A stretch of DNA of 64,000 nucleotides from Ascochyta rabiei (Eukaryota > Ascomycota > Dothideomycetes > Pleosporales > Didymellaceae): NCBI RefSeq assembly GCF_004011695.2, contig NC_082410.1, positions 1-64,000 of the forward strand. Reading direction: 5' to 3'. Below, piece by piece: positions 1 through 59,880 of this stretch. The notes below the pieces were generated by a model. The model saw only the letters and a list, made by a program, of their open reading frames with translations. It was not told the DNA's origin and did no database searches. Both the position numbers and the translations under genes were made by a program. Numbering within the stretch: the first letter of the stretch is position 1; every line of letters begins with the position of its first letter.

Positions 1-95
1 ACCCTAACCCTAACCCTAACCCTAACCCTAACCCTAACCCTAACCCTAACCCTAACCCTAACCCTAACCCTAACCCTAACCCTAACCCTAACCCT
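1..95. repeat. Telomere, CCCTAA array
   Basis: About 16 uninterrupted CCCTAA units start at base 1, so the window begins at the chromosome end. The + strand is the C-rich strand and the G-rich TTAGGG strand runs leftward. The array stops at 95, where CCCTCTTCC replaces the unit. Confidence 0.98.
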
Positions 96-2740
96 CTTCC
101 TACATTAAAACCCTAACCCTTACCTCTACACTCTTTTACTCTCTTTTTCTTTTACATTTATCCTTCCTTACTCCTTCTTACTCCCTTCTTCTTAACTCTT
201 TTTCTCTACTATTTTCTTCTCTCTCTACTTTTTTACTCTTAACACTTACTTCTTTCTACTACTTCTTCTCTCTAATTCCTCACTTTCTTCTTCATCCTAC
301 ACTTCCTTTCTTTTTTCTTTTCTTAAACCTTAAAACTCTTCCTCTTCTCTCTCCCTTTTTCTACCTTTCTTCTACCCCATCTTTACCTACTCTTTCCACT
401 CACTTTTCTTTTTTTCAAACCCTAACTCTCTTCTTACACTAAAACCCTATCCCTCTTCTTATACTAAAACCCTAACCCTTACTCTTACACTCTTCTTTAC
501 TCTTCCTCTTACTTTTACCTTCTTCCTTCTCTACTTACATTCTTATCCCTTACAATCTTTACAATTTCCTTCTACTACTTCTTCTTTTTTCCTACTTCTT
601 CTCTCTTTCTCTCTTTCTCTCTTCTCCTCTTCTTCTAAACTCTCCTCTTTTTCTTTCTTCTTCTTACTACTTTCAAATTTTTACCTCTTTTCTAATCTTT
701 CTTAAAACCCTAACCCTTTCTTTCTTCTAAAACCTTAACTTAACCTTTTACTCTATACTTCTTCCTTTACTTTTCTTACTCTTCTACCTTCCTCTACACT
801 TCCTTCTCTACCTTCTACTCTTTCTTCTCTTAACACCTCTTTTCTTACTTTCTACTTTCTACTTTTCTTACTTTTCTTTCTTTCTTTTTATTTTACTTTT
901 TCTTTAACCCTTAACTTTTCTACACTACTTTCCTTTCTATACACCTTACCTTCCTCCTACACAACTATTTCCTTCTAAATTTACTCCTTCTTCTTCTTCT
1001 TTCTTTCTATTTAAATCTTCACTTACTTTACCTTTTCCTTCTCTCTCTTTTCTTTTTCAAACCTCATCTCTTTTCTTATTAACTTTCTCTCTTACCTTTA
1101 TTTTTAACCTTCTTACTTTTCTTTCATCTTTTTACTCTTTTCTCTCTTTTCTTCTTATTCTTCTCTTTTCTTCTTCTTCTTCTCTTTTCCTTCCATTCCT
1201 CTTACTCTCTTCTACATTATAACTTTTTTTTTCTTAAATCCTTTCTTAATTTTTTAAACACTTACTTCCTATCTTTTACCCCTTTTAACAACTCTTACTA
1301 CTTCCTTTTTTATTCTTCTCTCTCCTAAACCCTAACCTCTTTTCTCTTCTTCTTTTTCTATCTCCTCTTCTTCTTTACTTTTCTTAACTTTTCTTACTTT
1401 TCTACCTTTATTTTAACCTAACTACTTTACTACCTTCTCTACTTCTCTTTTTCTTCTCCTCTAACTTCTTCTATCTACTAAATTATTTCTATTTTTAATT
1501 GTCTTCTTCCTTCTTTTTATCTCTCTTCTTACACTTCTACCTACTTCTTTCTTTATCTATTTCTACTTCTTTTTTCTTAAACCCCTTCTACTCTCTCTAT
1601 ATTAACACCCTAACTCTCTTCTAACTCTAAAACCCTAACCCTCTTCTTATTCTAAAACCCTAACCCTCTTCTTACTCTAAAACCCTAACCCTTACACTTA
1701 CCCTCTTTTTCTCTCTTACTCTACTCTTTTCAATACTCTACTTTCTTCCTTACTTTATTCTTCTCTTTACTCTACTCTCTTCTACTTCTTCTTCTCTTAT
1801 CTTTTTCTTCCCTCTACTCTTCTACTCTTAACACCTATTCTCTAATCCTTACTACTTTTCTCTATCCTTTCTACACACCTTATCCTTTCTACTTCCCTTA
1901 TCCTTTTCTTTCCTTATTCTACTACTCCTAATCTTCTTCACTTTTCAACAATCTTTCTTTAAACTACCACTCTTTCTTTTCCTACTCTCCTTCTTCTCTC
2001 TTTTTTAAAACTTCAACTTTTACTCTTCTAACTTTTCTTCTAACCCTACCCCTCTTCTCACACTAAAACCTAACTATTATTATTACTTTCTTCTCTACTC
2101 TCTCTTACTCTATTCCTTACCTTCTTCCTTACATATAAACTTACTTTCTTACTTACCCTCTCTCTCTCTTACTTATTCTCTTTCTACCTTTCTCTTCTCT
2201 CTCTAATTTTTTACTCTTAATACTTACTCTCTTCTTCTTATCTTTTCTACTCCTCTTTTCTACTTACTTTTCTCTACTACTCTCTTTTCTAACACCTTAA
2301 CTTTCCTCCTTCTCTTCTTACACCTACCTTCAATCTGTACTCTCTCTTTTACTCTACTAACTTTTTCTAATTTTTCTTATCTTTTTACCTTCTCTCTAAC
2401 TATTCTTTTATTCAACATCTCCTCTAATCAACTATCTTCTTCTTCTACTTCCCTCTTTTCTCTTTAATTCTTTTTACTATTTAAAACTTATTTATATCTT
2501 ATCTTCTAACTTCCCTCTTCTATATATCTATTGTTTCTTTCCTTTTTCTTTTTATCTCTATCTACCATCTCTCGATTTTCTTTTGTACTTTTTTTATTAT
2601 TATTACTATCTTCTCCTACTTATAAATAACTCTTGACTCTATTCCTTTATACTTAACTAATACTATACTATTTTCCTTCTTTCTTTTCTTCTTTCTTTTC
2701 TTCTTCTTTACTACTATTACTACGCTACTGTCTTTTTCTC
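96..2740. repeat. Pyrimidine-rich, G-depleted subtelomere with degenerate telomere motifs
   Basis: No gene is seen here. The + strand consists almost only of C, T and A: between 96 and 2336 the only G I find is at 1501, and further Gs appear from 2337. Telomere-like motifs of the form AAAACCCTAACCCT recur near 103-120, 415-480, 700-735, 1325, 1607-1695 and 2040-2070. At 1607-1695 they form about three consecutive units of ~26 bp, telomere motif plus CTTCTTACTCT spacer. This reads as decayed telomeric sequence spread through a CTT/CTA-rich filler. Confidence 0.85.
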
Positions 2741-2744
2741 TCTC

Positions 2745-4170
2745 TTCTATTCCGCTCCGCGGTCTCAACCACCTCCCCTCCTTCACTCTCTTCTGTTCCG
2801 CTCCGCGGTCTCAACCACCTTCCCTCCTTCACTCTCAACCGCTTCGCTCCAGGGGCACATCCACGGGCCCCCCGCCTACCCCTCTACTCCCCTCTCCCAT
2901 GATACCTTATCACGGGCCCACCGCCTACCCCTCTTTCTCCCTCACCCTCTTTCTCCTCAACCACCCTCTTCTCCTTAACTCCCATCTCCTTTCTCCTTCT
3001 TTTACTTTTAACTCGACACTTACTTTTTCCTATTATTAACTTTCCCTTCCCTCCTCACTGCTCTCTTGTGACACCTGACGGGCCCACCACCCACCCCTCT
3101 CTTGCGCGTCACGGCCTTTTTAGTTTGCGGGCGCGTCTCTCTAACGCACAATATGCCCTGTGCACTCTTAGGCGGGTTTCCGTCATACCCCCTACCAGTT
3201 GCCGGCCTGCAAATGCGGGTAACTCTAACCCTAACCTCGACCTGTGTCTGGTCCTAAACCCAACTTCACTTATCTGACGTCTTTGTTACGCTTACTCTCT
3301 TGTAACGCCTTACAGGCCCCCCTTTAGTTCTTCTCCCCTAAACGCTGTCTCAATCGTTTCTACAGTTTAATGCTGTGCTCTTCTGCTTTTAACAACGGAT
3401 CTGCTCACTCTGTTAACCTTCTTGCTGGTTACCCGGCCTTTTACGGGCTGTTTGCTGTTGTCTCTTACCAGTCACAGGTCATGCTCCTCGACTGCCCGCC
3501 TTCCCTCCCTCTCCACCCTTTCGCCTTTCTCCAACGGTCTCGACCACGCTTCTGTTAACACTTGCTGCACTCTCAGACGGGTATCTGCTACACCCCTGTT
3601 ACGCGTCACTAACGCACCGGTTACGGGGGCCTCTTCACGGGTTACGGACCTCTCTACGGGCTCAGGGGCACCTCTACAGGTTGTACGCCTTACTGTCGGC
3701 CTCTTCTTATTCTGTGCTATTGTCAACTACTTTGCTCGGCGTCCTTGTAATACATTATCACGGCTTACCTCTCTACTGCTTTGCTATGTTAACCTCTCAA
3801 TGATACCTCATCACAGCTTCGTCGCCTACCTCTTCTCTTTTCTTAACTACTGCGCTTCTTGTGCCTCCCCACAGGCCTTCCGCCCCCCCCTTCTACTTCA
3901 CCGCTGCGCTCGGCTTCTTTGTGACACCTTACGGGCCCACCGCCCACCCTCTTCTCCCTTCTTCTCAGCGACCCTCTCTTAAAACACCCACGGGCCCACC
4001 GCCCACCCCTTCTTCTACCCTCTTCTCTCCCTTATCCCTTGCTCGTGATACCTTATCACGGCCCTACCCACCTCCCCTCTTTCTCCTTCACCCTCTACCG
4101 CCCCGCCCGACTGCTTTGTGACACCTGACGGGCCCACCGCCCACCCTTCTCTCACGCACTACAACATCTA
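2745..4170. repeat. GC-richer subtelomere with dispersed ~35-bp repeats
   Basis: No gene is supported. G content rises abruptly at about 2745. A CCGCTCCGCGGTCTCAACCACC-like module occurs near 2752 and 2794. A module built on GTGACACCTGACGGGCCCACCGCCCACC recurs near 2860, 2910, 3066, 3920, 3987, 4046 and 4115 with varying ends. Open frames here only read through repeat copies. Confidence 0.7.
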
Positions 4171-4480
4171 CAGGATTAGGAATGCCTTTCTGGCTGCGGC
4201 ACCACAATCAGGTTTGCTAAACTTCCCCTAACTACTGTTCTATCTTGTGACAATACTCTCTAAACGCCTAAAAACCTTTTTAAATGCATCCTCCTCTCTA
4301 TATCTTACTTTTCCCTAATTTTCGTTGTCTTAATCCTGCGCTTTCTTTTTAATACAAACGGCTGCTTTAGGTTAGGGACTTACTTACTTTTAGGTGCTCT
4401 TCCTAGTTTACGGGCTCTTTCTAGGCTGTGCGCTGTTCTTAAATGATTGGCTCTTACTACTTGGGGGCACTAATGTGGAC
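4171..4480. other. Non-coding stretch with no recognisable content
   Basis: AT-richer spacer between the CGGGCCCACC repeats and the G-rich repeats. I see no gene, RNA or repeat that I can support. Confidence 0.5.
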
Positions 4481-4481
4481 T

Positions 4482-4730
4482 CCCTTAGCTTGCAGGGACC
4501 ACTTTCGGGCCACTTGGGGGGACTACTTTCGGGCCACTTAGGGGAACTACTTGGGAACCACTTAGATTGGGGGACCTACTCAGGTTGGACGTGCCACTTA
4601 GGTAGGGCAACTACTTAGGTTAACGCACTACTTGTGGAACTACTTAGGGAACCACTTGTGGACCTACTTAGGCTAGGGGACTACTAGGCAACCACTTGGG
4701 TTGGCGGACCACTTTGGGAACCACTTGGGA
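4482..4730. repeat. Degenerate CTACTTAGG / CCACTTGGG repeats
   Basis: Short irregular units of the type GGGACTACTT(A/C)GGG and AACCACTTGGG recur through the stretch. The + strand is G-rich here, the reverse of the telomere-proximal tract, so strand skew flips near 4.4 kb. Confidence 0.65.
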
Positions 4731-4844
4731 TACTACGCGGGTTGATGCTTACTACGCGGGTTGATGCTTACTACGCGGGTTAATGCTTACTACGCGGGTT
4801 AATGCTGACTATGCGGGTTGGTGCTGACTACGTGGGTTGGGGGA
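4731..4844. repeat. 19-bp tandem repeat, about six copies
   Basis: The unit TACTACGCGGGTTGATGCT repeats at 4731, 4750, 4769, 4788 and 4807 with single-base variants (GTTGA/GTTAA, TACT/GACT). A last degraded unit begins at 4826 and runs into the GGTTGGGGG repeats. Confidence 0.9.
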
Positions 4845-5010
4845 TCCGCATGGGTTAGGGGCTCTACTTAGGTTGGGGGGGCTCTACATAGGTTGGGGGA
4901 TCCGCATAGGTTGGGGGCTCTACTTAGGTTGGGGGGCTTTACTTGGGTTGGGGGCTTTACTTAGGTTGGGGGATCCGCATAGGGTGGGGGGAACTACTCA
5001 GGTTGGTGGC
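4845..5010. repeat. G-rich tandem repeats with G-quadruplex potential
   Basis: Units of about 18-19 bp alternate GGATCCGCATAGGTTGGGG and CTCTACTTAGGTTGGGG. Many runs of four to seven Gs lie a few bases apart on the + strand, which could form G-quadruplexes. The open frame through it is only translated repeat. Confidence 0.8.
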
Positions 5011-5400
5011 TGTCTCTTGCGGGCGTCTGTGTTCTTCTACATGCTGTTGCTTGCTTAACCAAACCACATATAACCCTAACCCTATCCTGACATACGTCCC
5101 AGCCCCCACCGCAGCTCTAACACCTCTACTTGTCTCTGCTGCCCTCTTTACTTATGCTCTCTGCGCTTGTGTGCGCTTCTGCTCCTTTGTCTGTCTTGTT
5201 AATAATCTGCTTGCCGTAAACGCCAGTAACTCTACCTTAATTTGCGTCCAGACTGGAACTTAACCCTAATGCTAACTTGCGTCCGGGCCCGACCGCAACT
5301 CTACTACCCTGACTTCCGTCCCAGCCTGAACCTAACTCGGCTGCACCGCTTCTATGAATCGTAAGCGGAAATTCTTTTATTTGCTACTACTGCATCTACT
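5011..5400. other. Spacer with interstitial telomeric motifs, 3' flank of TLH copy 1
   Basis: Contains CCCTAACCCTA near 5073 and a loosely repeated ~30-bp module with CGTCC(A/G)(G/C)CCC near 5092, 5280 and 5310. No gene is supported on the + strand. The TLH frame from the right can be read into this stretch but is stop-rich there. Confidence 0.5.
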
Positions 5401-5404
5401 GCGT

Positions 5405-8400
5405 CTACTCAGCTAACAACCGCGTAATCTAACAAAATTCCTTAACTAAATTGTTGCTCTCTACGTTGTCTAGCGGCTGCTTCTTCCCTAAATATTTAAT
5501 TAACATCCTACCCGGTCCTGCATCGTCCACCCCAAGCTCCACTAATTAGACCTGCTATTGGGCATTTGCCTCTGTGTAACCGAATACTATGCCTATTAAC
5601 CCTGCGCTTAATACCCCAGTGTACTAACAAGTTCTGTCCTCTACTTGTTAATATCGCCCCTCCCCGTTCGGTTCCCAGCTATTGCAAATCTCCTGCGGCA
5701 CGCCACCGCACAGGAAACAGCCTAAAAACATGTTAAACCGAACTTGATCATCCATCCTCTGTACTATCTCTTTTGCTTTTTTACTTTCTGCCCTCTAACA
5801 CTGCCGTATGTTGTGTCTGCTCTGCGCGTTGCCCGCTCCCTTGCATATCCTGCATTAATTCGCCTACTACGCTAACTGCCTGCGCACCCACTCTATATCA
5901 GCAAACTCTTGCTGTCGATGCTCCGTCAACGTCTGCCACAGCCCCCGACGCGCCTGCTCCTGCTGCCAAAACACCTGCTGCACCTCTTCTTGCTCGGCTT
6001 CAACGACGTCTATCTCGTCCCGATCGTTGTTCTCTGGCTCGCTCTCTTCTTCTGTTTCTTCCTCTACCACCTCCTCCAGCTGCCCGTCTATCCCTCGACA
6101 CACGTCGCACATCTCCTCGTTGTCCTCCTCTCTACACCCTGCTTGATCCTTCCTCCCATCCAAATACCCGTCCAACACTTCCCTCCTGCAGCCAACCGCC
6201 CTGCTCTCGCCACCTTCCACATACTCCCTCACCATCTGCCGCTCAGCTTCTGTCCTGTTGTTGTTAGTGCGTTGTTTCCTATCCTAAACAATTAAAACTG
6301 CCTCGCTTTGCAACCCGTCCTAGCCTGCCCTGCCGCTCTCTTGTGCGTAATCTAACATGGTAAACGGCTAATTAATGTGAATAATGCACCGTACATCCGG
6401 TATGTCCACGCCTATCCCTAACGCGCTCGTTGCTACAATCACGCGCTGCTTACCTGCCATGAAGTCTGCTAACATGGTTGGCTTGCCTATAGCATCCGCG
6501 TGATACGCGTAACAATCCAATTGCTCTGCTATTGCCTTTACCTTCAGCTTTAAGTTGCTGTACACAATAAGCTTACCTGTCCTGTACTTCTACATCTTCT
6601 GCCGCACTGTCTTAACAACCATCAACTTAACGTCCTTCTTCTTCGCGGACTGGCTGATCTGGATGGTCTGATACGCCACGTTTGTCCTAGTAGTTAGTTG
6701 TCTAAACATCTTGACCTGCTTCTGCTTGTAATGCATTCGTTAATACAGCTCGTCTTCTTCTGTCAGCAGCAACGTTGCTGTTAACAGCACCATCTGCGTC
6801 TCAGCTGCTGCCAGCCTGCCGAGCTGTTGCATCTGCTTGCGGAACGTGTAGCAACGGTTCAACACAATGTAACACTTGTTAATCACGATGCGGTCCAGCT
6901 GCCGCGTCGCTCGCAGCCGGTTCAAAAACGTCGCGAACGCTTCTCCTACTGCCGACTCAGGCGTTACAAACACAATAGCTGCTGCGTCAGGCAGGCAGCA
7001 ACTCTGCCACTCGGCACACGATATCCCCAGCTCCTTGCATCGCCGCATCATGTCACTACGCAGCAAAACCAACGGCACAACGACGACCGTTGTTCTGCCT
7101 TGCTCTGCCCACGCCGGCAACATAAACAGCATGCTCTTGCCTGCGCCAGTCGGCATCACGGCCACAACAGGGCTCTCGCCGGCAATGATCGCCTTAATCG
7201 CCTCCTTCTGCACGCCTCTGAATTTGGCTTTCTTGCCCTTCATTCGCTTAAGTTGCGCTGCCGGGTCCATCTTCCTCAGCTGCTCCAGCCGCTCTATCCT
7301 CGCCTCGTCGGCCTCGCTCTTGAACGGCGCCTTCTTCTGCTTCTTAACGTCTGCCACTGCGTCTACGGCAGACTAGAAACCTAAAAACCGGTGCCAATTG
7401 GTGCTTGAGTTGCGGAACAGCTGCCGCCTGTCTGCTGTAACGCCTGCTATCTCTATGATCCCGCGCGTGTATACCATGCCGGCTACGTGCGCGCTGTGGC
7501 CGGCCTGCTTGTCCTAGATGTTGGCGAGCATATTCTCCTCATTCCACTCCTTGTTCTCCTCTCCCTCCTCTGCTCGAAATGCCGACAATGGCTGCAAAAA
7601 CCTCCGGCTGATGCTGATGGCAATCTCACGGTATGCTGCAATCGTCAACTCTTGCTTTAAACCTACTCTGCTTTTACGCTTTAGTATTTCACAAAATTGG
7701 TCGCTTGTCCACTTCCGTCTGCTGGGGTCCGCTGGCCACATGTGTGATGATATTGCCTCTTTCTCCTACACTATCGCCTCTAACTGCTGCTAAAACGGCA
7801 ACACCAACTACATGTAATACACCACCAGCTCGCCTACCTCGCGCAGCAAGTACCAGTGAATGATCTTAACATTGCTGCTTACAGCATACCCCTTATAGTA
7901 CCACGTAACAAACGCAACTATGCTGTCCTTAATAAAAATGTTTCAGTGGCCCCCCTTAATGGTGTTGCTGTGTTGAACGCTGCCTAACTCTGGCCACCTT
8001 GCGGGTTGCCCTTCTGCCATGTGCACTAACGCGGCCAGCTTCTCTTGAAACGCAATTACTTGATCCATGTACCGCTCCACCTCTTTCTAGTCGATGCCTG
8101 AACAGGTTCCTGGCTTAATGAACCTTTCCCTGACGCTGTTGTCCTGGCCTACCTGCTCAAACAACCACTTTTCCCTATCTACGGGCATGCGTGTGCAGTG
8201 GTCCTGCAAAAAGTTCCACCCTGGCCGCTTATTAGTCGGGTTGTCGCGCAGCTGCTCCCATGGGATTAGGGGCACTTGACCTGCTGTCTGCTCGCCGCAA
8301 AACAGCAACTCCTCCACCAGCAGCCGCTTGGCCTCAGCCTGCATACCGTGCACTATGCCGCAGAACTAGGCTATAGTGAAGTGCAAGTTCTTATACAGCA

Positions 8401-10057
8401 GCTCATCCTTCCCTATCCACTTAACATGGCTGCGCGACGTAGTGTTGTAGTGCACCTTCAGCCCGTACGTGCGTAAGTTAAGCATCTACTACATTAGGCT
8501 GTGGCTCCCTTGCACCATAAACCTGTCCATCATCTGCTGCACAAACTCTAAGCAGCCTTTAGGTTAACGCTGACTAGGGGGGCTACTGCCGCTGTCGCTC
8601 CCCCTGTACGCGCTATTGTTGTCGAACGCCTGCTCTTTAAACGGCTCAGACAGCTCTAGTGCGTGCTGCACGACCATGAAACAGGTGATTTTGATTACGG
8701 ATAACAAGATTGGCGGGTACAGCTCAGGGCCCTTCCAGCCGTCTTCCTTAACGCCGAGCACGGCTAACGCGCACACCATCGCGCAATTGTACTCCTTGCG
8801 GCAGATAGTCTGTTTAAGCAACACAATGCAAAAGTCCAAGCACGCTTTTTTAATCGGCCTCAGCTTCGCGTGCTTAGGCTCATTGTTGCGTTCAGACGGG
8901 TCCTGCTCGTCGTTAAGCTTATCGATCATCATCTCGTCCTCCTCTTCCTCCCCGTCCTCGTCCTGGTCCTCGTCCGCTATCTCCATCTCTGCCCCGCCTA
9001 CGTCTCTCTCTGCCTGCTCGATCAACGCCTCCCACGCCTCGCGCTGCTGCTGCGTGAAGCGGTACTTGGGGCTCTTCCAGCAGTGCTCCCTCTGCGTCTG
9101 TGCAAAAAACATCAGTATCTGCTTCTATAGACGTGACCGCTCTTTAATCAACTTCTTGTCCATGTACGCCTGCAGCAGCGTGTACCTAGTCTGATGCTTC
9201 TCTATACAAATAGCTTCCATACGCACAAATATGCCTGTCTGCTTAATAACAGACGTCTGGCTCACGCAGGCCAGTCCATCCATCGCGCTCCAAATTGCAG
9301 CCTTAACGGGCTCCTTATCTTTCTCTAGGTCTATGTTAGGCTCCTTAATGCTTGCTAGCAATTTGGTACGATCCAGTTTGTTTAAGTACAGCAGCTACCC
9401 AGTCCGCTCCAGCCATAGGGCTGCCTCGTCCTTCTCCCTGTCTTCGATTATTGTCTTTGTCCGGTTCTTGACGTTGGCCCACGTCTTAGCCATCTCCTCG
9501 CCTACACGCGCCCACGCTGCCTCGCCCTTAATAGGGACAGGCTGCGGACCGCTGTCTAGGGTGTGACGCACCTCGAAGTACTGTAATCTGTGCCAGCTGC
9601 CAAAAAGTCGCTGGCAGTGTACGCGCTTGCAGCCATCTTCGAGCTGGGCCTGTAACGCCTTTGCCCGGGTTCAGCTGGGGCGTCCGCATTTCTTTCCAGC
9701 TGACCACCCATGTGTCGTACGCTAATGTTCTTTCAGCATCTTTAGGCTGCGGAACACTAGTTAGCATGTCTCTGGTTCGAGTTAACACAGCAGCCCGTCG
9801 TCGAATACGGGCAGCTGGGGGATCGCCTGCACGCTGTTGCTGGGTATCTCCAACTCCGTAGGGTACTGTAGCAAGCCTGCCCACTGACGTACGGCTTCCC
9901 CAACCGCCTTAACGCTTTTAAGTGACTTCTTGTGCTGTTTGTGCAAGTGGCTCTTGATCTGATCTGGCTATACTGCGTATCGGCACGCTCTGCACACCGC
10001 GACCTGGTACTCAGCCAAGTGCTTAAAATACGGATTCTTGACTTCTTCTGCCGACAT
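5405..10057 (-). pseudogene. Telomere-linked RecQ-type helicase, copy 1 (nearly full length, RIP-mutated)
   Basis: OrsD-type TLH, a nuclear ATP-dependent DNA helicase family found next to fungal telomeres. Reading starts at the ATG at 10057-10055 and stays in one frame for about 1550 codons. The N-terminal OrsD zinc-finger module has C22, C25, H37 and H42. A long TLH-specific middle follows. The C-terminal RecQ core has Walker A PTGAGKS near residue 970, the DEAH box read as INKCY near 1060, LTAT near 1092, motif V near 1211-1222 and a motif VI-like DYAQESGRAG at 1236-1245, followed by stop 1246 and DG. A Cys-rich tail ends near 5405 (end uncertain). More than ten in-frame stops, nearly all TAG or TAA, and loss of the acidic DEAH residues make it non-functional. 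It pairs head-to-head with the gene at 10261. Confidence 0.9.
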
Positions 10058-10260
10058 GTTGGTGGCTTGGTTCTTGCTTGATCCAACGCTGCAGTCGCTG
10101 TTCTTATCGCTGGGTTATGTTAAGTTTCGCACCCCAGCTTGTGCGCCCGCTCATGTTGTACAGGCTGATCTCTGTTCGGTCTGTTACCCTGGTCAGGGGC
10201 TTAACCCAACAAATCTCTTTCTTCTTCCGCTGTATCTCCTACATTAATAAACAAACAGTT
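10058..10260. promoter_or_regulatory. Shared divergent promoter, copy 1
   Basis: This 203-bp gap separates the two start codons of the divergent pair and is nearly identical to the gap at 14105-14321. A perfect palindrome, CCCTGGTCAGGG, lies at 10187-10198. The segment GTGCGCCCGCTCATGTTGTA at 10141-10160 is unchanged between copies. Conservation beside RIP-damaged coding sequence suggests either recent duplication or a protected regulatory site. Confidence 0.6.
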
Positions 10261-12060
10261 ATGTCACCATCTAATCTACCCTAGATCTCCGCGTTGGAAG
10301 ATGCCGCCGAGCAATTCGATGGTGGGCCCCGGAGCTTCCCGCTAGCCAGCGAGTCGAGCTTTGCCTACAGGCTCGCATACAACCTGCCGAACCTAGACTA
10401 CTAAAAGCTATTTTAGAGCAAGGCAACTGTCTTAGACTCGCAGCGTGATGCTCTATTCCGCCCGCACAGCGCAGGCTGGCTGATTCCGGCCAAGACAAGT
10501 GTCTGCAAGCCTGTCTTTGTTGCCTACTCTGTGCTGTCAGCAATATGGCTGTTAAAGGAGACGCTTGCTAAGGACGCGCTGCCTGCTGATGCTTAGGCCC
10601 GGCTGGTCTCTGCAGCGCAGGATCTTGCTAGCAGCCCGAGCGACAGCTTCTAGAAGGAACCCCCTTCAGCGCAGCAGCCCTGCGATTCCCTACCACCGTC
10701 GACAAAGCGCGCTGCTGCATCCAGCTCAGCGCGGCCGTCCAAGCGCCTCCGACGAGCCAGCGAGTCTCCCAGTCCTGCGACGCCGCTGGAAGCAGAGGAC
10801 GAAGCGGAGGAACCTGAGCAGCTTGCGCCGCCCAGTGAATCTGAGGCGGCTGAGGACCCTAAACAGCCCGTCCGTGGACAGGTTGGACACAAGGAACCGC
10901 CCCAGATTACGAGCGTCTCTAACAAAAACCGTCGTGCTGAGCAGGAGCGCGCCAGGAAGCTGGAGCTTATGCGAGCGCAGAAGAAACAGGACCTTAGGTT
11001 GGTGCTGCCGCCTAAGTCGGCATCCCGCAGGGAACACGGTGCCTATGCCTCCATCTTGCGGCGGGATGAGCCGTTCATCTCTTGGATCCTCAAGCAGCTG
11101 GTTGACGACGACGACCTGTACAGCAGTACCGCAACGCCTTACCTGACAGCTTCTGGCATACTCAAAAAGGCCAACTCCATCAGCAACACTACCTCCCAGG
11201 CCTCTGCGGCTGCATTTCTGCGGAGCTGGCGCACACAAGGCTTACCCTTTGCGCAGGAGTCTGTGGAGGATCGCCCGCCCGCTTCCTCGCGCACCCGCTA
11301 GTCGCTGTCGCAGAAGAATAGCTCCTCGACTGTGCCAAAGAGCGCGCTCGCTTCTGCCTGGAGCCTGTGCGATCGCTACGAGCAGGAGTTGGATATTATC
11401 TATATTAAGTACCGCTAGGCTATAGCTTTCCTTAGCAAGGCCTACACTAAGAGGATAGACCAGATCAAGGAGCAAGACGTTGCCCGCAGCAGCGATGCTA
11501 AGAACCGAGGCAGCAGGGGCAAAGTCAGCTCTGAGGCCATGGACGCCCTGCTGCTGTCCGCCACCGCCATGTCGGGGCGTCAGCAGCGTCAGCGATTTAA
11601 GAAGCAGCTGCACCAAGCGCTCCGCTGGTACGAAGCAGCCAAGCAGCTGGGCTGGGGCATGCTCTGCCTGATGCCGCACAACATTATCTCCAACTTGTGG
11701 GTAGAGAACAATCTCCGCGTCCCCTTCTGGCACATCTGGCTCAAGTTGGTTGTAGAGGTGAATCTGGAGGCCTACAAAGCAAGCATGGCCTTAGACGCCT
11801 GGCTAGGCTCAGAAGGCATCTCTGGCGGATCTATCAGCGAGAAGGCAACGCTGTCGATCGAGGCAGACACGCCGACACCGGCGACGCAAGTGGAGGAGAT
11901 TAAAGACAGCGAGATGGAAGATGGCGAAGACACCAAGAACGGCGACAACGACGGCGCTGAGGATGCGCCGTCTCAAGGACCCGCTAAGAGCCCTGCGCCC
12001 GCCCGTCCGATGCGCCAGCTTACCTTAATTGAGCTGTGTAAGCCTTTTCAAGGCAAATAG
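10261..12060 (+). pseudogene. Unrecognised TLH-partner protein, copy 1
   Basis: One frame runs from ATG 10261 to TAG 12058-12060, 600 codons with no indel but seven internal stops, all TAG or TAA. Three of the positions that differ between copies show the ancestral codon: the stop in SSRTR*SLSQ and in DA*ARLV is TGG (Trp) in copy 2, while AIW and FISW here are stops in copy 2. The protein has a basic patch (KRLRR), an acidic Glu/Pro/Ala stretch, a charged helical Arg/Glu/Lys segment, a Trp-rich conserved block (WSLCDRYEQEL; WHIWLKLV), an acidic tail and a C-terminal RQLTLIELCKPF. I do not recognise the family. Placement and composition suggest a nuclear protein acting with the helicase, which is inference only. 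Confidence 0.75.
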
Positions 12061-12442
12061 CATACTACAATTTTTTATTCTGTGCTATGCAGTAAGTGTG
12101 TTACTTTCTTGTGTTGGTGTTTACAGAGTTGTTCTGTTGTAGTGATGCGGCGGGGCCTGGTCCTCCGCGCACTAGCCTAACCCTGACCAACCCCAACTAC
12201 AAGCACCAACCCCAACACTACCAACCAAGTGGACAATGATGCTGGGGGTTGCATGGATAACAGAGTTGAGTGCTGCGAGACTGTTGTCTACGTTTTAGCT
12301 CGAACGGACTTAAAAATGGAATTCCAATGTACAACTGAATAGTATTCTAGCGTACGTTGTGACTGAAAATACGCTAGTGTCCTGTAGCTGTTGTCACTAA
12401 CAAAACCAAAGCTATAACTCCAGTGAAGGTACACTGCAACTA
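12061..12442. other. Spacer between cassette copies
   Basis: No gene seen. It contains telomere-like CTAACCCTGACCAACCCC near 12178 and an imperfect inverted repeat around TAGCGTA/TACGCTA near 12346-12375. It ends at the left homology breakpoint of TLH copy 2. Confidence 0.5.
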
Positions 12443-14104
12443 CCCATTTGGGATAGTGTTGAAATGCACCTTCAGCCTGTACGTACGCAAGTCGAGCATC
12501 TACTACATTAGGCTGTAGCTGCCTCGTACCATGAACCTGTCCATCATCTGCTGCACAAACTCTAAGCAGCCTTTTGGTCGACGCAGCCTAGGGTTACTGC
12601 TGCCGCTGTCGCTCCCCCCGTACGCGCTGTCGTTGTCAAACACCTCCTCTTCAAACGGCTCAGACAGCTCGAGTGCGTGTTGTACAACCATGAAACGGGT
12701 AATTTTAATTACTAACGACAATATCAGCAGGTACAGCTCAGCATCCTTCCAGCCGTCCTCTTTAACGCCGAGCACAGCCAACACACACACTAACGCGCAG
12801 TTGTACTCCTTACAGCAGATGCGCTAGTTAAGTAGCGCAATGCAAAACATTAAGCACGCTTTCTTAATCAGCGTCAGCTTTGCGTGCTTGGGCTCGTTCT
12901 CGGGCTTGTTCTCGGGCTTGTTGTCGCACTCGGACGGGTCCTGCTCGTCGTTGAGTTCATCAATCATTATCTCGTCCTCCTCCTCCTCTTCCTCCTCGTC
13001 CTCATCCTGGTCCTCGTCCGCTACCTCCATCTCTGCCCCGCCTACGTCTCTCTCTGCCTGCTCAATCAATGCCTCCCATGCCTCGCGCTGCTGCTGTGTG
13101 AAGCGGTACTTGGGGCTGTTCTAACGGTGCTCCCTCTGCGTCCTTGCGAAAAACATCAGTATCTGCTTCTACAGGCGTGACTGCTCTTTAATCGACTTCT
13201 TGTCCATGTACGCCTGCAGCGGCGTGTACCTAGTCTAGTGCTTCTCTGTACAAATGGCCTCCATGCGCACAAATATGCCTGTCCGCTTAATAACAGACGT
13301 CTGGCTCACGCAGGCCAGTCCATCTATTGCGCTCCAAATCGCAGCCTCAACAGGCTCCTTATCTTTCTCTAGGTCTATGTTAGGCTCCTTAATGCTCGCT
13401 AGCAATTTAGGACAATCTAGTTTGTTCAAGTACGGCAGCTACCCAGTCCGCTCCAGCCATAGGGCCGCCTCGTCCTTCTCCCCGTCTTTGATCGTTGTCT
13501 TCGCCCGGTTCTCGACGTTGGCCCACGTCTTGGCTATCTCTTCGCCTACGCGCGCCTACGCTGCCTCGCCCTCTGTAGGGACAGGCTGCGGGCCGCTGTC
13601 TGGGGTGTGACGCACCTTAAAGTACTGCGATCTGTGCTAGCTGCCAAAAAGTCGCTGGCAGTGTACGCGCTTGCAGCCGTCTTCCATCTGGGCTTGTAAC
13701 GCCCCTGCCCGAGTTCAGCTGGGACGTCCTTGCCTTTTTCCCAGCGACCAGCCGTTATGGTCTTTGCGCCAGTGCTTTTTGATTAAGTTAACAGTTCTTG
13801 TAATATGCTGGCATTTTTTAGGCTTAAGTTGGTATAGCAAGCCATTGTTGTATACTGGCAGCTGGGGGATAGGCTGCACGTTGTTGTCTGGTACCGTCCA
13901 CTCGCTAGGGTACTGTAGCAAGCCCGCCCACTGACGGACGGCATCCCCTACAGCTCTAACGTTCTTTAGCAGCCTCTTGTGTTGCTTCTGCAAGTGGCTC
14001 TCGATCTGGTCCGGCCATACTGCGTACCGGCACTCCTTGCACACTGCTACCTGGTACTCAGCCAAGTGCTCAAAGTACTGATGCTCAACGGTGGCTTCTA
14101 ACAT
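12443..14104 (-). pseudogene. Telomere-linked helicase, copy 2 (N-terminal ~554 codons only)
   Basis: The ATG at 14104-14102 opens a frame colinear with TLH copy 1. It has the OrsD zinc-finger module with C37, C40 and the HLQKQH histidines, the second OrsD half ending HWRKDHNGW, then the acidic Asp/Glu-rich stretch near 12960-13020. Homology to copy 1 (8438 onward) ends at about 12443, before any helicase motif, so the enzyme core is absent. Stops are nonsense points in a single frame. The break looks like a duplication or recombination breakpoint, not decay. It is divergent from the gene at 14322. Confidence 0.88.
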
Positions 14105-14321
14105 GTTAGTAGTCCTCTGCGAGCCTCTGTGTGTGTGTTTTTTTTTTCCTTAAGGCAACTGCTCTTATCTCTGAATTGTGTTAAGTTTTGCACCCTAGCT
14201 TGTGCGCCCGCTCATGTTGTATAGGCTGATCTCCGTTCGGTCCGTTACCCTGGTCAGGGGCTGAACCTAACAAACATCCTTCTTCTTCCGCCGTATCTCC
14301 TATATTAACAAACAAACAGTT
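14105..14321. promoter_or_regulatory. Shared divergent promoter, copy 2
   Basis: Counterpart of 10058-10260, with the CCCTGGTCAGGG palindrome at 14248-14259. It differs by scattered transitions and by a short T-rich run near 14140. It lies between the start codons of TLH copy 2 and partner copy 2. Confidence 0.6.
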
Positions 14322-16112
14322 ATGTCACCATCTAATCTACCCTAGATCTCCGCGTTGGAAGATGCCGCCAAGCAATTCGATGGCGGGCCCCAGAGCTTCC
14401 TGCTAGCCAGCGAGTCGAGCTTTGCCCACAGGCTCGCATACAACCTGCCAAACCTAGACTACTAAAAGCTGTTTTAGAACAAGGCCACTGTCTTAGACTC
14501 GCAGCGTGATGCTCTATTGCACCCACACAGCGCAGGCTGGCTAGTTCTGGACGAGACGAGTGTCTGCAAGCCTGTCTTTGTTGCCTACTTGGTGCTGTCG
14601 GCAATATAGCTGTTGAGGGAGACGCTCAACAAGGACGCGCTGCCTGCTGATGCTTGGGCCCGGTTGGTCTCTGCAGCGCAGGATCTTGCAAGCAGCCCAA
14701 GCGACAGCTTCTAGAAGGAACCCCCTTCAGCGCAGCGGCCCTGTGATTCCCTACCACCGTTAACAAAGCGTGCTGCTGCATCTAGCTCAGCGCGGCCGTT
14801 CAAGCGCCTCTAACAAGCCACCGAGCCTCCCAGCCCTGCGGCGCCGCTGGAAGCAGAGGACGAAGCGGAGGAACCTGAGCAGCTTGCGCCGCCCTGCAAA
14901 CCTGAGGCGGCTGAGGACCCTAAAGAGCCTGTCCATGGACAGGTTGGACAGGAGGAACCCGCCCAGATCACAAGCGTCTCTAACAAAAACCGCCGTGCTA
15001 AGCAGGAGCGCGCCAGAAAGCTGGAGCTTATGCAAGCGCAGAAGAAACAGGACCTTAGGTTGGTGCTGCCGCCCAAGTCGGCATCCTGCAGGGAACACGG
15101 TGCCTATGCCTCCATCTCGCGGCGGGATAAGCTGTTTATCTCTTAGATCCTCAAGCAGCTGGTTAACAACAACGACCTGTACAGCAGTACCGCAACGCCT
15201 TACCTGACAGCTTCTGGCATGCTTAAAAAGGCCGACTCTATCAGCAACACTACCTCCCAGGCCTCTGCGGCTGCGTTTCTGCGGAGCTGGCGCACACAAG
15301 GCTCACCCTTTGCGCAGGAGTCCGTTAAGGATCGCCTGTCCGCTTCCTCGCGCACCCGCTGGTCGCTGTCGCAGAAGAGCAGTGCCTCGACTGTGCCGAA
15401 GAGCGCGCTCGCCTCTGCCTGGAGCCTGTGCGATCGCTACGAGCAGGAGTTAGATATTATCTATATCAAGTACCGCTAGGCTATAGCTTTCCTTAGCAAG
15501 GCCTACACTAAGAGGATGGACCAGATCAAGGAGCAAGACGTCGCCCGCAGCAGGGATGCTAAGAACCGAGGCGGCAGGGGCAAAGTCAGCTCTGAGGCCA
15601 TAGACGCCCTGCTGCTGTCTGTCACCGCCACGTCAGGGCCTCAGCAGCGTCAGCAATTTAAGAAGCGGCTGCACTAAGCGCTCTGCTAGTACAAAGCAGC
15701 TAAGCAACTTGGCTGGGGTATGCTCTGCCTGATGCCGCACAACATTATCTCCAACTTGTGGGTCAAGAACAATCTCCGCATCCCCTTCTGGCACATCTGG
15801 CTCAAGTTAGTTGTAGAGGTGAATCTAGAGGCCTACAAAGCAAGCATGGCCTTAGACGCCTGGCTAGGCTCAGAAGGCATCTCTGGCGGATCTATCAGCA
15901 AGAAGGCAACGCTGTCGATCGAGGCAAACACGCTAACATCAGCAACGCAAGTAGAGGAGATTAAAGACAGCGAGCTGGAAGACGGCGAAGATGGTGACGA
16001 CCACAGCGTCGAGCCTGCGCCCTCCCGAAGGACTACAAACAGCCCTGCGGTCGCCCGTGCCATGCGCCAGCTTACCTTAATTAAGCTCTGTAAGCCTTTT
16101 ACAGGCACGTAG
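14322..16112 (+). pseudogene. Unrecognised TLH-partner protein, copy 2
   Basis: ATG 14322 to TAG 16112 in one frame, 597 codons, close to copy 1 along its whole length, with nine internal TAG/TAA stops. Some stops are private: LH*ALC*YKAA reads LHQALRWYEAA in copy 1, which fits CAA to TAA and TGG to TAG. Others are shared, near the start and at IKYR*AIAF. The acidic tail differs by a few codons. The C-terminal motif is RQLTLIKLCKPF. Damage is independent but of one mutational type, so both copies descend from an intact gene. Confidence 0.75.
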
Positions 16113-16486
16113 TGTGCTATAATTAATTGCTCTGTACTGTGCATTTAGTGTGTTACTTTCTTACGTTAGTGTTTATGGTGTTAATGTTCTGCTGCGTTAA
16201 TACAGTCATTGTCCGCGCGCTAGCGCAACCCTAACTACAACAACAAACCCTACCCCCATGATTTACAAAGCTAATTTTGCTATAACTTACACAGGTAATG
16301 TAGGTTATTAACGCAAAATATATGTCTAAGTTTAAAGCAGATCCAATCTGTTGTTGCAGAATGACCGTAGTTGGGAGAAAAACCAACTGTACCCATGATA
16401 AGATATCCGCGCAAAATCTGTAGCCCTGGTCCCTAACAAATCCGTACCCCTAAATCAACCATTAGAATGGTTGGCCTACCCATCTT
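16113..16486. other. Spacer after cassette copy 2
   Basis: No gene seen. It contains CGCGCTAGCGCAACCCTAAC near 16215. The TLH copy 3 homology starts at its right end, just after GTCAACGCC. Confidence 0.45.
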
Positions 16487-19400
16487 GGTTAGGTATGTCA
16501 ACGCCTATCCCTAACGCGCTTGTTGCTACAATTATACGCTTTTTGCCCGCGGCAAATTCTTCTAACATGCTTGCTTTGCCTACGGCCTTGTGATGGTATG
16601 CGTGACAACCTAAGTTCTTCGCCAACTCCTTAACCTTTGGCACCAAATTGCTGTACACTACGACTTTCCCTGTCTTATACTTGCGCAACTTCTGCTGCAC
16701 CATGCCTAACACCATTTCCTCCACCTCCTTCTTCTTTGCTGCCTTGCCTACCCTGATCACGCGGTACGCTACGTTCGTCCTTGCGGTTTTGGCTCGGAAC
16801 AAATCGACCTAATCTCGCTCGACGTACATCCGCCGGAACAACTCGTCTTCCTTGCTCGGCGGCAATGTTGCTGTCAACATCACCATCTGCGTCTTGGCAG
16901 ATGCTAACTTGCCTAACTTCTGCATCTCCTTGCAGAAATTGTACTGGCGGTTCAATACGATGTAACACTTGTTAATCACAATCTGGTCCAGCTGTCGCGT
17001 TGCCCGCAACCGGTTCAAAAACGTCGCGAACTCTTCCCTAACTGCTGACTCGGGCGTCACTAATACAACTGCGGCTGCGTCTGGCGGGTGGCGGCTGTCC
17101 CACTCGGCGCACGATATGCCCAACTTCCTGCATTGCCGCATTATGTCTCCCTGCAACGCGATTAACAGCACTACAACCACCGTTGTACCGCCCTGCTTGG
17201 CCTATACTGGTAACATAAACAACATGCTTTTGCCTGCCCCAGTCAGCATTACTGCCACGACGTGACTCTTGCCGGCAACAATGGCGTTAATAGCCTCTTT
17301 CTGCACGCCGCGAAACTCAGCCGCCTTGCCCATTATCTGCTGCATCTGCGCGGCTGTGTCCATCTTCCTTAACTGGCCCCAGCGATCAATCCTCGCCTCG
17401 TCTGCCTCGCTCTTGAACGGGGCCTGCTTGCGCTTCTTGCACCCGTTGTCGTCGTCTACGCCTGCTTGGAACCCTAAAAACCAGTGCCAATCCGTGCTCG
17501 ACATACGGAACTGCTGCCTCTTGTCTGCTACTGCCCCTGCCTGTTCCATGATGCCTCGTGCGTATATCATCCCTGCGATGTGCACCATATACCCTGCCTG
17601 CATGTCCGCAATAGCTGACCACGTGTTCTCCTTGTTCTACTCCTTGTTCTTGTCTCCCTCGTCTGCTTAAAACGCGGTGGACCCGCGTAAAAACTGCTGG
17701 CTGATGCTAATGGCGATCTTGCGATACGCTGGAATCGTCAGTTCCAATCCTAATCTGATCCTGCTCTCGCGCTTCAACGTCTCTCGGAACCGGTCGCTCG
17801 TCCACTTGCGGCCGCTTAGGTCTGCCGGCCACATGTGCGACGATATCACCTCCTTCTCCTACACCATCACCTCCAACTGCTGCTAGAACAGCAACACCAA
17901 CCACATGTAATACACCAACAGCTCGCCCACCTTGCGCAGCAAATACCAGTGGATAATCTTAACGTTGCCGCTTACGCTGTATCCCTTGTGGTACCGCGTT
18001 ACGAACACAACTATGCCGTCCTTAATAAATATGTTGCAGTGCCCGCCCTTAACTGTGTTGCTGTGCCAGATGCTTATGATCTCTAGGGCTCTCGCTGGCT
18101 GTCCGCCCGCCATGTGCATCAACACAATCAACTTCTCCTGGAACGCAACTACTTAATCCATGTACCGCTCCACCTCCTGCGTGTTAATGCCCGAACGGGT
18201 GCCCCGCTGCATGAATCGGTCCCTGATGGCGGCGTCCTGCCCTACCTGCTAGAACAACCACCTCTCTCTATTAACGGGCATGCGCGTGCGGTGGTCCTTT
18301 AAAAAATTCCACCTAGGCTGCTTGTCAGTTAGGTTGTCGCGCAAACCGTCCTACGGCACACTAGGGATAGGCTCGGCAACCTTGCTGTTGCCAAACAACA
18401 ACTTGTCTATTAACAACTGTTAACTCTCTGTCGCCAATCCATACACTATGCCGCAGAACTGTGCTATGCTAAACTGCAAACTCTTATACAACAACTCGTC
18501 CCAGCTAACCTACTTAACGTGGCTGCGTGACGTGGTGTTGTAATAGATCTTTAACCTGTACGTCTGTAAATCCAATATCTACTGCATCAGGCTGTAGCTG
18601 CCGCGCACCATAAACTGGTCTATTATCTCCTGCACGAACTGTAAACATCCTTTGCGCCAGCGTTAGGGCAGGTTGCTGCTGTCGTCGCTCTTGTACGCGC
18701 TGTTACTGTTGAACTCGTCTTTATTATCCAACGGGCCTAACAACTCCAACGCCTGCTGCACAACCATAAACCGCGCTACCTTAATAACAGCCAACAAAAC
18801 GGGCGGATACTGCTCAGCACCTTTCTATCCATTCTCCTTCACGCCTAACACAGCTAATGTGCACACTAACAGGCTGTTATACTCCTTGCGCGTGATTAAC
18901 TGGCTTAACAACGCAATGCAAAACTCTAAACACGCCTTCTAGATGCTTAACAACCTCTCTGGCTCACTGATGGCGTTAGTGGTGGGCTTGGCTGTGTCTG
19001 TCTCTATCTCGTCGATGGCTTCGTTAACGTCTGCCATGGTCTCGTCTTCTTCGTCTTCGTCCTCTACCTCTTCCTCTTCTTCTTCCTCTTCTGCTTCCTC
19101 TCCTTCGACGCTTCTCTCCGCCGCCTCGACCAACGCCTCCCATGCCTCTCGCTGCTGGCAGGTAAAACAATACGCTGGACTCTTCTACGCGTGCTCCTGT
19201 TGCGTTTGTGCAAAAAACATTAATATCTGCTGCCACGGCCGCGTGTGGTTGCTAATTAACTTCTCGTCCATGTACGGCTGCAACAGCTGGAATCGCGTCT
19301 GGTGCTTCTCTGTCCAGATTGCCTCCAGCCGCACGAACACGCCGATGCGGTAGATAACGGACGCTTGACTGAACCGCGCCAATCCCTCCATCGCCGCCCA

Positions 19401-20171
19401 CATTGCTGCCTCTACAGGCTCGGCCTGCTGCTCCTGCCTGGGATTGGGCTCTGCCACGGGTTCCTCGATGCACGCCATCAGCTTAGGTCGCTCCATGCCT
19501 ACTAAATACGGCAACTACTGCGTCCGCTCCAACCACAGGTTTACCTCGTCTTTCTCTCCCTCCTGGATGGTGTTTTGCGTCTGCATCTCGACGTTGGCCT
19601 ACGCCTTGGCCATCTGCTCGCCCACCTGCGCCTATGCCGCGTCGCCATCTGGCACAACGTCTGGGCTATTGTCGTCAGGCTGCTTAACCTCAAAATACTG
19701 CGACCCCAGGCCCTAGACCAACAACTGCTGGCAATAGATTCTCTTACAACCCTTGCTGATGCGCTCTTGTATCTCTGCCTTCTCTACCCAGCTCGGACGA
19801 CCTCCTTTTCCTGCTACTGACTAACTGTGGGTCTTCTGCTAATGCTTCCTTATTGCCTCTGCGCTTTAGAATATCTGACGGCAATGGTCTGCGTCTACCT
19901 GACACATTAACCTGTCTGCGTAAACCAGCAACTGATGTATAGGCTGAATAGCCTAGCTTAGCACTTCTAACTCTCCTGCATATTAAATTAATCTAGCCTA
20001 ACTACTTACGTCTTCTGCTACTAACTCGGCTTGCTTCCGGCTGACACGATGACGCTGCAAATGACTCCTAACCTGGCTAGGCAAAACGCTGTGTCTACAC
20101 TCTTTGTAAACTGCCAACGCGTACTTAACTAAATGCTCAAAATACTTGCCTGCAACGCTATCCTCTGTTAT
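16487..20171 (-). pseudogene. Telomere-linked RecQ-type helicase, copy 3 (C-terminus missing)
   Basis: A single frame of about 1228 codons. The start codon is inferred at 20171 and reads ATA, as if ATG were mutated. The first zinc-finger cysteine reads Tyr. The TLH middle block reads well from 18131 to 17202. Walker A is LTGAGKS (Pro to Leu), the DEAH box is again INKCY, then LTATL and the motif V stretch ATSALGIGVDIPN. Homology stops there, so motif VI and the tail are lost. It is more diverged from copies 1 and 2 than they are from each other and has no partner gene on its right. Confidence 0.88.
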
Positions 20172-26862: not shown

Positions 26863-27060
26863 TAGTTATGTTATACTAAAATACCCCTATTTATGTATAT
26901 AATACAATGTAGGCAATCCTTAAGTATTAAAGATAAATTCTAGGTAGTAATCAATGCCTGTAATAGGTACACAAAGTACTTAGTAATTAATTTAATTTAC
27001 AAATAAATAACTGCTAAGCACCCCTGTTAAGCGTACCTACCTACACTATAATTGCCGAAT
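26863..27060. other. AT-rich gap with TATA-like element
   Basis: Contains TGTATATAATACAATGTA near 26896, repeated near 28334. Possibly remnants of one retroelement promoter. No gene. Confidence 0.4.
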
Positions 27061-27697
27061 ACTATAGTAAGCACTAAGCTACTATAGTAAGCACTAAGCT
27101 ACTATAGTAAGCACTAAGCTACTACAATAAGCACTAAGCTACTACAGTAAGCACTAAGCTACTACAGTAAGCACTAAGCTACTACAGTAAGCGCTAAGCT
27201 ACTACAATAAGCACTAAGCTACTACAGTAAGCACTAAGCTACTACAGTAAGCACTAAGCTACTACAGTAAGCACTAAGCTACTACAGTAAGCGCTAAGCT
27301 ACTACAATAAGCACTAAGCTACTATAGTAAGCACTAAGCTACTACAATAAGCACTAAGCTACTACAGTAAGCACTAAGCTACTACAGTAAGCACTAAGCT
27401 ACTACAGTAAGCACTAAGCTACTACAGTAAGCGCTAAGCTACTACAATAAGCACTAAGCTACTACAGTAAGCACTAAGCTACTACAGTAAGCACTAAGCT
27501 ACTACAATAAGCACTAAGCTACTACAGTAAGCACTAAGCTACTACAATAAGCACTAAGCTACTACAGTAAGCACTAAGCTACTACAGTAAGCACTAAGCT
27601 ACTACAGTAAGCACTGAGCTACTACAGTAAGCGCTAAGCTACTACAGTAAGCACTAAGCTACTACAGTAAGCACTTAGCTACTATAGTAAGCACTAA
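27061..27697. repeat. 20-bp minisatellite, about 32 copies
   Basis: Unit ACTACAGTAAGCACTAAGCT in strict 20-bp phase across more than 600 bp. Variants are limited to CAG/TAG/CAA in the fifth to seventh bases and GCAC/GCGC, nearly all transitions. It ends directly at the TG of the next LTR. Confidence 0.95.
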
Positions 27698-58748: not shown

Positions 58749-59640
58749 ATTGATTGATTGATTGATTAGTTTAACGTCCTGTGTGAGTCTAAGACTATAT
58801 AAGACGAGAGTAGTTAAGCTACTCTAGTAATTTAAGGAGCGTGTTTATGTAAGGGGATAGTAAATATGTGTTTATAGTCCTATAGTAAGAGCCTATGCTC
58901 TAAGAGGTATACAGAGGATTTAAGGTGTTTGTTGTTTGTTGTAGGTACTACTTGCGTGTGTCTACTTTAGTCTCTAAAATAAAAGCTAGAGTAGCTAGAA
59001 TTCCTTAGTTTGTGTGTAGTAGTAGGGTTATTAGAAGCCTCTAACCTTTTAGGCTATCCTGCATTGTTTTCCTTCTATCTCTGTATTATCTACAGCTTAG
59101 TAAAAGGTGTTGTGTTATTTGTATGTAGCTGCAGATATATCTACCATTGTCTACCTTCTAAACATTATGTAGGTATGCTTTGTTGTATCTATATTCTAGT
59201 TTTAGTTAGTAGTAGGCGCTAGCTGTCTCTCTCTTAATGTCTTTTAGTAGTTTTATGTTGTTTGTTAGTTCTAGCTAGTATTTTGTTGTGTAGGTGTTTG
59301 TTTTTCTTAGGAATACTTTGGCTTTGTAGGTGTCTAGCTTATGTTTCTACTCTTTTGTTGTAATAGCTTCAATTACAAAACTAGTTATAGCAATGCTTAT
59401 CAAGTTAGAGGTAGGCGTCTTTTTAGTTGCTTCTTTCGCTAGGGAATCTGCTTTCTTGTTTCCTGCAATGTCTCGATGTCCAGGGGCCCATTTAATGCTA
59501 ATTGTGGCTCCTTTGTTTTTAACAGTCTTAGCTACCTTTATGCAGCGTATTTGCTAGGCCTGTTTAGGTTTATTTAAAGGAGTTTTTAGTCTTAGGATTG
59601 CTGCCTAGTTATGTGTAAGATCTTAGATGTCCTGTGTTGC
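58749..59640 (-). mobile_element. LINE 2, 5'-truncated copy (RNase H and 3' end)
   Basis: The - strand matches LINE 1 from about 54935 to its 3' end. RNase H residues are readable (SIKWAPGHRDIAGNKKADSL) with few stops. The 3' end GGACGTTAAAC is followed by (AATC) repeats against the flank at 58749-58765. It is 5'-truncated near 59640, typical of aborted target-primed reverse transcription. Confidence 0.85.
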
Positions 59641-59659
59641 AGTTACGCTGGCAAAAGGG

Positions 59660-59880
59660 TAGGGGGTACCCTAGGGTTAGGTAGGGGTTGGGTACGGTCC
59701 GCACGGACGTTAGGTAGGGGTAGGGTAGGGGTACCTCTAGCGTGGGGTAGGGGTAGGGTACAGTCTGCACGGACGTTAGGTAGGGGAAGGGTAGAGATAC
59801 CTCTAGCGTGGGGTAGATGTAGGGTACAGTCCGTACGGACTAGGGGTAGGGGTAGGGTAGGTTAGGTTAGAGTTACCTAA
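59660..59880. repeat. 66-bp G-rich tandem repeat, about 2.7 copies
   Basis: Units begin GGTACGGTCCGCACGG at 59691, 59757 and 59823. Each holds a palindromic GTCCGNACGGAC-type core (one copy GTCTGCACGGAC) and runs of GGGGTAGGGTAGGGG. G-quadruplex potential on the + strand. The open frame through it is repeat only. Confidence 0.85.

Follow-up and report, generated by a model that had tools for sequence, protein, structure and literature searches.

A TLH helicase gene and its divergent partner as parts of a probable chromosome-end mobile element in Ascochyta rabiei

We analysed the window, a stretch of 64,000 nucleotides (nt) at the left end of contig C6 (NC_082410.1) in the genome of Ascochyta rabiei (40.9 Mb in 23 contigs), where TLH helicase genes lie head to head with a second gene, here called the partner. 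Reports of TLH genes at the chromosome ends of fungi go back some two decades. Inward from the telomere, the window carries a G-poor tract, minisatellites, TLH-A, partner A, a TLH-B fragment, partner B, and TLH-C, with the TLHs pointing to the telomere and the partners pointing away from it. The telomere, a tandem repeat of (ACCCTA)n at 1..95 (+), forms the outer end of unit A and is followed by a pyrimidine-rich tract with 2 G in 2,405 nt on this strand (96..2500, +). GC-rich minisatellites separate this tract from TLH (4495..5006). TLH-A (6323..10057, −) was followed from its start codon to the helicase motif QESGRAG, its C-terminus past 6323 not being delimited, and contains an OrsD domain at 9707-10027 (−). 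It faces partner A (10261..12060, +), a PF28402-type gene with 7 internal stops, across spacer A (10058..10260). The final 60 nt of unit A, an inverted repeat followed by CTACCCATTTGGGATAG, form its inner terminus (12397..12456, +). Unit B comprises a 5' fragment of TLH-B (12457..14104, −), cut at the junction with unit A, then spacer B (14105..14321), partner B (14322..16112, +, 10 internal stops), and an inner terminus whose final 60 nt end in CTACCCATCTTGGTTAG (16433..16492, +). The divergent TLH-C, with an approximate start codon and its 3' part cut at the junction with unit B, occupies 16493..20162 (−) and has no partner match.

An earlier, sequence-only reading of this stretch held that two of the three TLH copies face a rightward gene of about 600 codons across a conserved spacer of about 200 bp, and that the pair was duplicated as a unit. 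The two pairs are confirmed: their spacers, each common to both genes, measure 203 bp (10057/10261) and 217 bp (14104/14322) and align over 163 bp at 89% identity. The partners are 85% identical at the protein level (stops masked), and the whole pair aligns over 3,757 columns at 85.9%. The duplication, by contrast, was no simple tandem event. TLH-B is cut at 12,456/12,457 and TLH-C at 16,492/16,493, give or take the bases shared at the junction, where the termini of units A and B end, and we therefore read the arrangement as two successive end additions. From these cuts, B would have been added to an already shortened TLH-C and later have lost its outer part, and A would then have joined the remainder of B. 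All window copies of both genes are broken by stops (21 over 1,238 codons in TLH-A, 10 over 544 in TLH-B, and 26 over 1,212 in TLH-C). Helicase motif II, DECH, reads NKCY in TLH-A (6869-6883) and TLH-C (16962-16976), so these copies have lost that motif.

The linkage extends throughout the genome. The partner search of the genome gave 104 candidates, of which 73 were scored, and the partner and OrsD counts are lower bounds. At least 80 partner matches merged into 72 loci; 71 of these are divergent from their nearest OrsD match, 70 of them within 1 kb, which supports the existence of a near-obligate TLH partner. When a second, truncated partner match in the merged C1L locus, beyond a junction at 12,441, is counted apart, the linkage becomes 71/73. 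The sole merged locus without a head-to-head OrsD match is C11:10315-11859. OrsD matches number at least 99, or 98 after merging, all 98 within 40.9 kb of contig ends, and 26 of the 98 are not the nearest OrsD of any partner. On the 22 contigs longer than 1 Mb, all 72 partner loci lie within 41.4 kb of a contig end, in zones that make up 4.5% of the sequence. The loci all read away from the nearest end, and 39 of the 44 ends have at least one partner; the remaining contig (55 kb by subtraction) has no partner match. Across 30 loci, the distances between TLH 5' regions correlate with those between partners (r=0.77, 0/2,000 permutations), a value that includes the deep split of two main families. 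A joint action of the two proteins is inferred from this linkage. As a separate observation, OrsD places at the C5 right end (C5:2360906) and the C12 left end (C12:25970) have identical scores and stop counts and, in addition, paired terminus copies, which suggests a large block common to these two chromosome ends.

Relatives of the partner were found in Ascochyta, Pyrenophora, Parastagonospora, Boeremia, Paraphaeosphaeria, and environmental contigs. Among 120 partner and 92 TLH clusters listed, the longest contig has the same size to the base in 12 pairs, as compared to a mean of 0.47 and a maximum of 2 when the sizes were slid. One of these pairs is A. rabiei itself, two are Pyrenophora teres, and nine are environmental contigs of 8.6-18.2 kb. 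In P. teres, the partner HRS9122_10468, the OrsD protein HRS9122_10467, and the TLH HRS9122_10470 have neighbouring tags and the same 79,864-bp contig size. Judged by these sizes and tags, Pyrenophora and environmental contigs appear to carry both genes, so that the linkage seems to extend to other fungi.

In A. rabiei, the pair belongs to a larger unit with the order telomere, G-free tract, minisatellites, TLH, partner, and inner terminus. All 32 units of the terminal family stop at the same inner terminus downstream of the partner, after which the sequence changes at once. The last 40 nt are identical in 30 of them, while C9R and C2L have one base different each. Behind this terminus lie 28 distinct flanking sites; some hold older TLH/partner genes or the pyrimidine tracts of earlier units, others AT-rich DNA, and the one at C2L telomere repeats. 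Old units have been buried and cut short by later ones. The terminus pattern (at most 2 mismatches) has 37 matches across the 40.9 Mb, none of them more than 44.6 kb from an end, and the reversed control has none; the flanks were read for the terminal units, and five of the 37 matches lie further inward. From terminus to contig end, 28 of the 32 units measure 12,389-12,458 bp, and the four others 10,395, 10,424, 11,818, and 12,225 bp. Two compared pairs of terminal partners differ by 14 and 15 transitions and 0 transversions in 1,719 bp. At C5L, no G occurs within the first 3,692 nt, so the strand whose 3' end is at the terminus lacks C over 3.7 kb; the first G lies 3,686 and 3,692 nt from the end at C20R and C1R, which were viewed only from 2.2 and 3.2 kb inward, respectively. 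The tract may be linked to a telomere-like mode of synthesis, or it may keep the 3' strand unstructured. Repeated GCGAACAAATWCA motifs, possible protein-binding sites, lie upstream of the terminal-family terminus (L040, near C9:12330-12453).

Both window copies, which end at 12,456 (unit A) and 16,492 (unit B), belong to older subfamilies, whose termini are related to that of the terminal family. Among the old-subfamily loci analysed, 26 of 27 end at a terminus of the CTACCCAT...TAG type (L034 showed no such end), and their flanks are mostly different, with one held in common by L014 and L016. Closely related copies differ almost exclusively by transitions, which fall mainly at CpA/TpG and CpG (e.g., 45:1 and 126:0 transitions to transversions), whereas the more distant partners A and B show 123 transitions and 32 transversions. 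In sequence terms, this bias is the signature of repeat-induced point mutation (RIP). The 26 old termini comprise 18 distinct 60-nt ends that align without gaps and share an inverted repeat of five pairs (columns 25-29 with 36-40), which is paired in 97.8% of cells, as compared to 17.8-50% in slid controls; four of the five pairs show changes on both sides. The numbers of cells paired and of cells changed on both sides and the covariation score are each above 500/500 shuffles. The old termini fall into few subfamilies, so the covariation represents a handful of independent changes rather than 18.

For 21 of the 32 terminal junctions and 16 of the 26 old ones, a paralog spanning the target could be compared; these comparators, at 80% identity or more, stand in for the original targets, and the 21 include some cases with a common junction. 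The bases before the junction match the terminus over 0-5 bp, with means of 1.10 bp (terminal) and 2.94 bp (old), as compared to 0.14 and 0.34 bp at random positions in the same targets (0/5,000 draws each). The last base of the target is G at 13 of the 21 terminal junctions; all 16 old targets end in G, 14 of them in AG and 11 in TAG.

Taken together, TLH and its partner are probably the two genes of a ~12.4-kb chromosome-end mobile element that has no recognised reverse transcriptase. The product is a unit, mostly of full length, that is attached to a chromosome end through a single precise end, and we infer a joining enzyme for this step. Rather than a free-standing pair of host genes, TLH and partner form the coding part of a larger unit with the behaviour of a mobile element; the sequence-only reading had named a transposon open reading frame as grounds against itself. 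This is largely what the partner now appears to be, albeit in an unusual element. We propose that the unit would be joined inner end first, as full-length DNA, to an eroded, broken, or cut chromosome end, and would give the recipient end a new telomere. RIP would then mutate the copies, so that the chromosome end would become a stack of increasingly decayed caps. A DNA route, by a recombinase-like TLH or by joining of a cut fragment, fits the uniform unit length.

For the proteins, TLH has a RecQ helicase fold, with the Pfam domains DEAD, Helicase_C, ResIII, and OrsD; OrsD, DEAD, and Helicase_C are above the Pfam cut-off in the long open C5L copy, and OrsD and DEAD in the C20R copy. The RecQ helicase probably melts or remodels the inner terminus. 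On balance, we narrowly favour that TLH also cuts and rejoins it through a tyrosine-recombinase-like domain, in which R/K/R/H/Y residues are near-invariant across 70 TLHs with an H-Y spacing of 9 residues. The partner is 574 residues long from the first ATG in open copies elsewhere in the genome. With an open genomic copy as the query, 118 of 120 homologs among the matches listed carry PF28402.1, A. rabiei entries included, and the protein was assigned to this family. Its predicted structure is mostly helical (mean predicted local distance difference test 77.3; predicted template modelling score 0.58), 100 full-length relatives agree to at least 90% at 118 of 567 positions, and the C-terminus has a conserved RQ-TLLELF tail, which may resemble a PCNA-binding peptide. 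The partner's probable role, in which we have less confidence than in the recombinase activity, is to bind the structured terminus or to keep the complex together.

Several observations weigh against the proposed element or its parts. The joining itself is deduced, no event having been witnessed, and the whole analysis covers one assembly, in which telomere repeats were read at C6L and C5L only and the other contig ends were taken as chromosome ends. A fully intact TLH was not established anywhere in the genome, where the longest frames have 1,359 codons (C5L, frame-shifted near the C-terminus) and 1,117 codons (C20R), and a full-length, stop-free match was obtained for only 3 of the 32 terminal-family partners. 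Within the classic catalytic set R-K-HxxR-H-Y, the first histidine of HxxR varies among TLHs, and the recombinase-like domain has no match in Pfam or PDB sequences; PF00589 gave no genome match at E<=1 and none in the 16 fragments scanned, and the structure-match lists for the TLH model were filled by its helicase part. Against eight E. coli tyrosine recombinases, the domain profile reached P 0.28 by default and 0.008 under permissive settings; 29, 32, and 40 of 200 shuffled controls were equally good, which is not significant, and a reversed query outscored the real one. The partner has no convincing PDB fold match to its model, no Pfam domain in the local scan, whose set of models lacks PF28402, and no PDB sequence match, so its role has no direct support. 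The inverted-repeat structure was drawn from the same sequences in which pairs were counted, and the count covers the old subfamilies, the terminal family's own inverted repeat lying outside it. Two of the five measures, pairs with double changes and pair types, stay within the shuffled range (219 and 304 of 500), and four termini folded one by one do only slightly better than shuffled sequences (z -0.90 to -2.37). Finally, 7 of the 21 terminal-family junctions, some of which are shared, have no microhomology, so base sharing is favoured and not required.

An unlikely alternative is a retroelement-like addition, in which an RNA with its end at the inner terminus would be copied by reverse transcription onto the 3' end of a chromosome, the enzyme acting in trans (telomerase or that of another element), as in rotifer Terminons or MoTeR/FoTeR. 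The polarity with the 3' end inward, the short microhomology, and the folded 3' end recall Terminons (PMC6431247), whereas most Terminon copies are described as 5'-truncated and 28 of the 32 A. rabiei units are full length. The longest frame outside TLH within C5L 1-6,100, C5L being the sole terminal unit read to the telomere, has 133 aa; frames were listed there and no reverse transcriptase profile was run.

Host repair could also join broken-off terminal fragments through microhomology, with no element enzyme and with the terminus as a mere fragile site. The 0-5 bp of microhomology are typical of such repair and are what it would leave. We consider it improbable, since breakage would be needed at the same base every time, the inverted repeat keeps pairing, the TLH/partner linkage is kept, and the partner is conserved. 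Similarly improbable is the view of the sequence-only reading, a host two-gene system that maintains chromosome ends. It accords with the near-obligate linkage, the end location, the conservation, and the reported upregulation of a TLH-like gene in telomerase-negative Ustilago (PMC10532341); stops and RIP-type changes in most copies, copies that end at a fixed terminus before different DNA, and the 26 of 98 OrsD loci that are not the nearest OrsD of any partner argue against it. The view is compatible with an element that also benefits the host. Ordinary subtelomeric exchange, in which homologous recombination or break-induced replication would spread passenger or host genes from one end to another, would account for junction blocks common to several ends (one junction shared by three ends at 100% identity and two further pairs at 95-96%), and homogenisation would also yield the transition-only differences between terminal partners, but it does not predict an invariant boundary before 28 different sequences (AT-rich DNA, other genes, pyrimidine tracts) and, largely refuted by this fixed terminus, is very improbable.

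The Y' elements of yeast spread by homologous recombination. They are also DNA elements with a helicase frame beside the telomere, regarded as a telomere backup (PMC4522978, PMC11042809); the A. rabiei unit differs by its second gene, its fixed terminus joined to unrelated DNA, and its G-free tract. Among fungal TLH genes, Parastagonospora X26 is described in PMC3017866 as a RIP-mutated telomere-associated RecQ repeat, likewise with OrsD and a RecQ-type helicase at chromosome ends in many RIP-mutated copies, to which the A. rabiei unit adds a fixed inner terminus and a linked second gene, neither of them mentioned in the text consulted. TLH also adjoins FoTeR retroelements (PMC12857005). Terminons, MoTeR, and FoTeR likewise sit at chromosome ends with their 3' end facing inward, and many of their copies are decayed or truncated (PMC6431247, PMC12857005), whereas the A. 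rabiei unit has no recognised reverse transcriptase and is mostly full length, without frequent 5' truncation. Cryptons are tyrosine-recombinase DNA transposons (PMC3212892); TLH has a candidate set of the residues, though fused to a RecQ helicase, with a telomere as one unit end and no PF00589 in the genome. Helitrons likewise have a helicase gene, and their 3' rule is a hairpin plus CTRR (PMC4522978). The A. rabiei inverted repeat lies 14-20 nt before the 3' end, but the helicase is RecQ-type rather than PIF1-type, the Pfam scan of TLH and partner found no Rep (HUH) domain, and the units end in TAG or GAG, with CTGG 3 nt before the terminal-family end.

The function of subtelomeric helicases, in which variants were found, was called unclear in a 2024 paper on A. 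rabiei (PMC11893274). In the portions of open literature consulted, subscription papers being outside its scope, we found no clear description of the partner, the inner terminus, or the TLH recombinase domain. We tentatively suggest, at somewhat less than even confidence, that TLHs, at least in Pleosporales, serve the transposition of a chromosome-capping element that is DNA-based and represents a new class. A protein that unites a zinc finger, a tyrosine recombinase, and RecQ, together with a new partner fold, would recognise a hairpin terminus, exchange whole chromosome ends at (T)AG or G sites, and carry a 3.7-kb tract whose 3'-ending strand has no C. The helicase genes at fungal telomeres have long been puzzling, and a mobile cap would offer a new way to explain them. 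It would also provide a further path by which a chromosome end acquires a telomere, with no recognised reverse transcriptase encoded by the unit itself, and account for the stacked, RIP-decayed subtelomeres in A. rabiei. The fixed terminus and its 28 flanks make the TLH question testable with respect to donor form, joining enzyme, and target rule.

Further inward, the window contains other repeats. A 20-bp unit is repeated about 32 times at 95% identity within AT-rich DNA (27060-27697). Two large inverted repeats, possibly nested transposon copies, lie in an AT-rich region, one of 2,868 nt at 93% (31578-34445 / 37710-40577) and a second of 950 nt at 91% (30630-31579 / 42458-43407). An inverted repeat of 793 nt at 81% (54922-55714 / 58851-59643) is followed by a 66-bp tandem array at 59656-59861.

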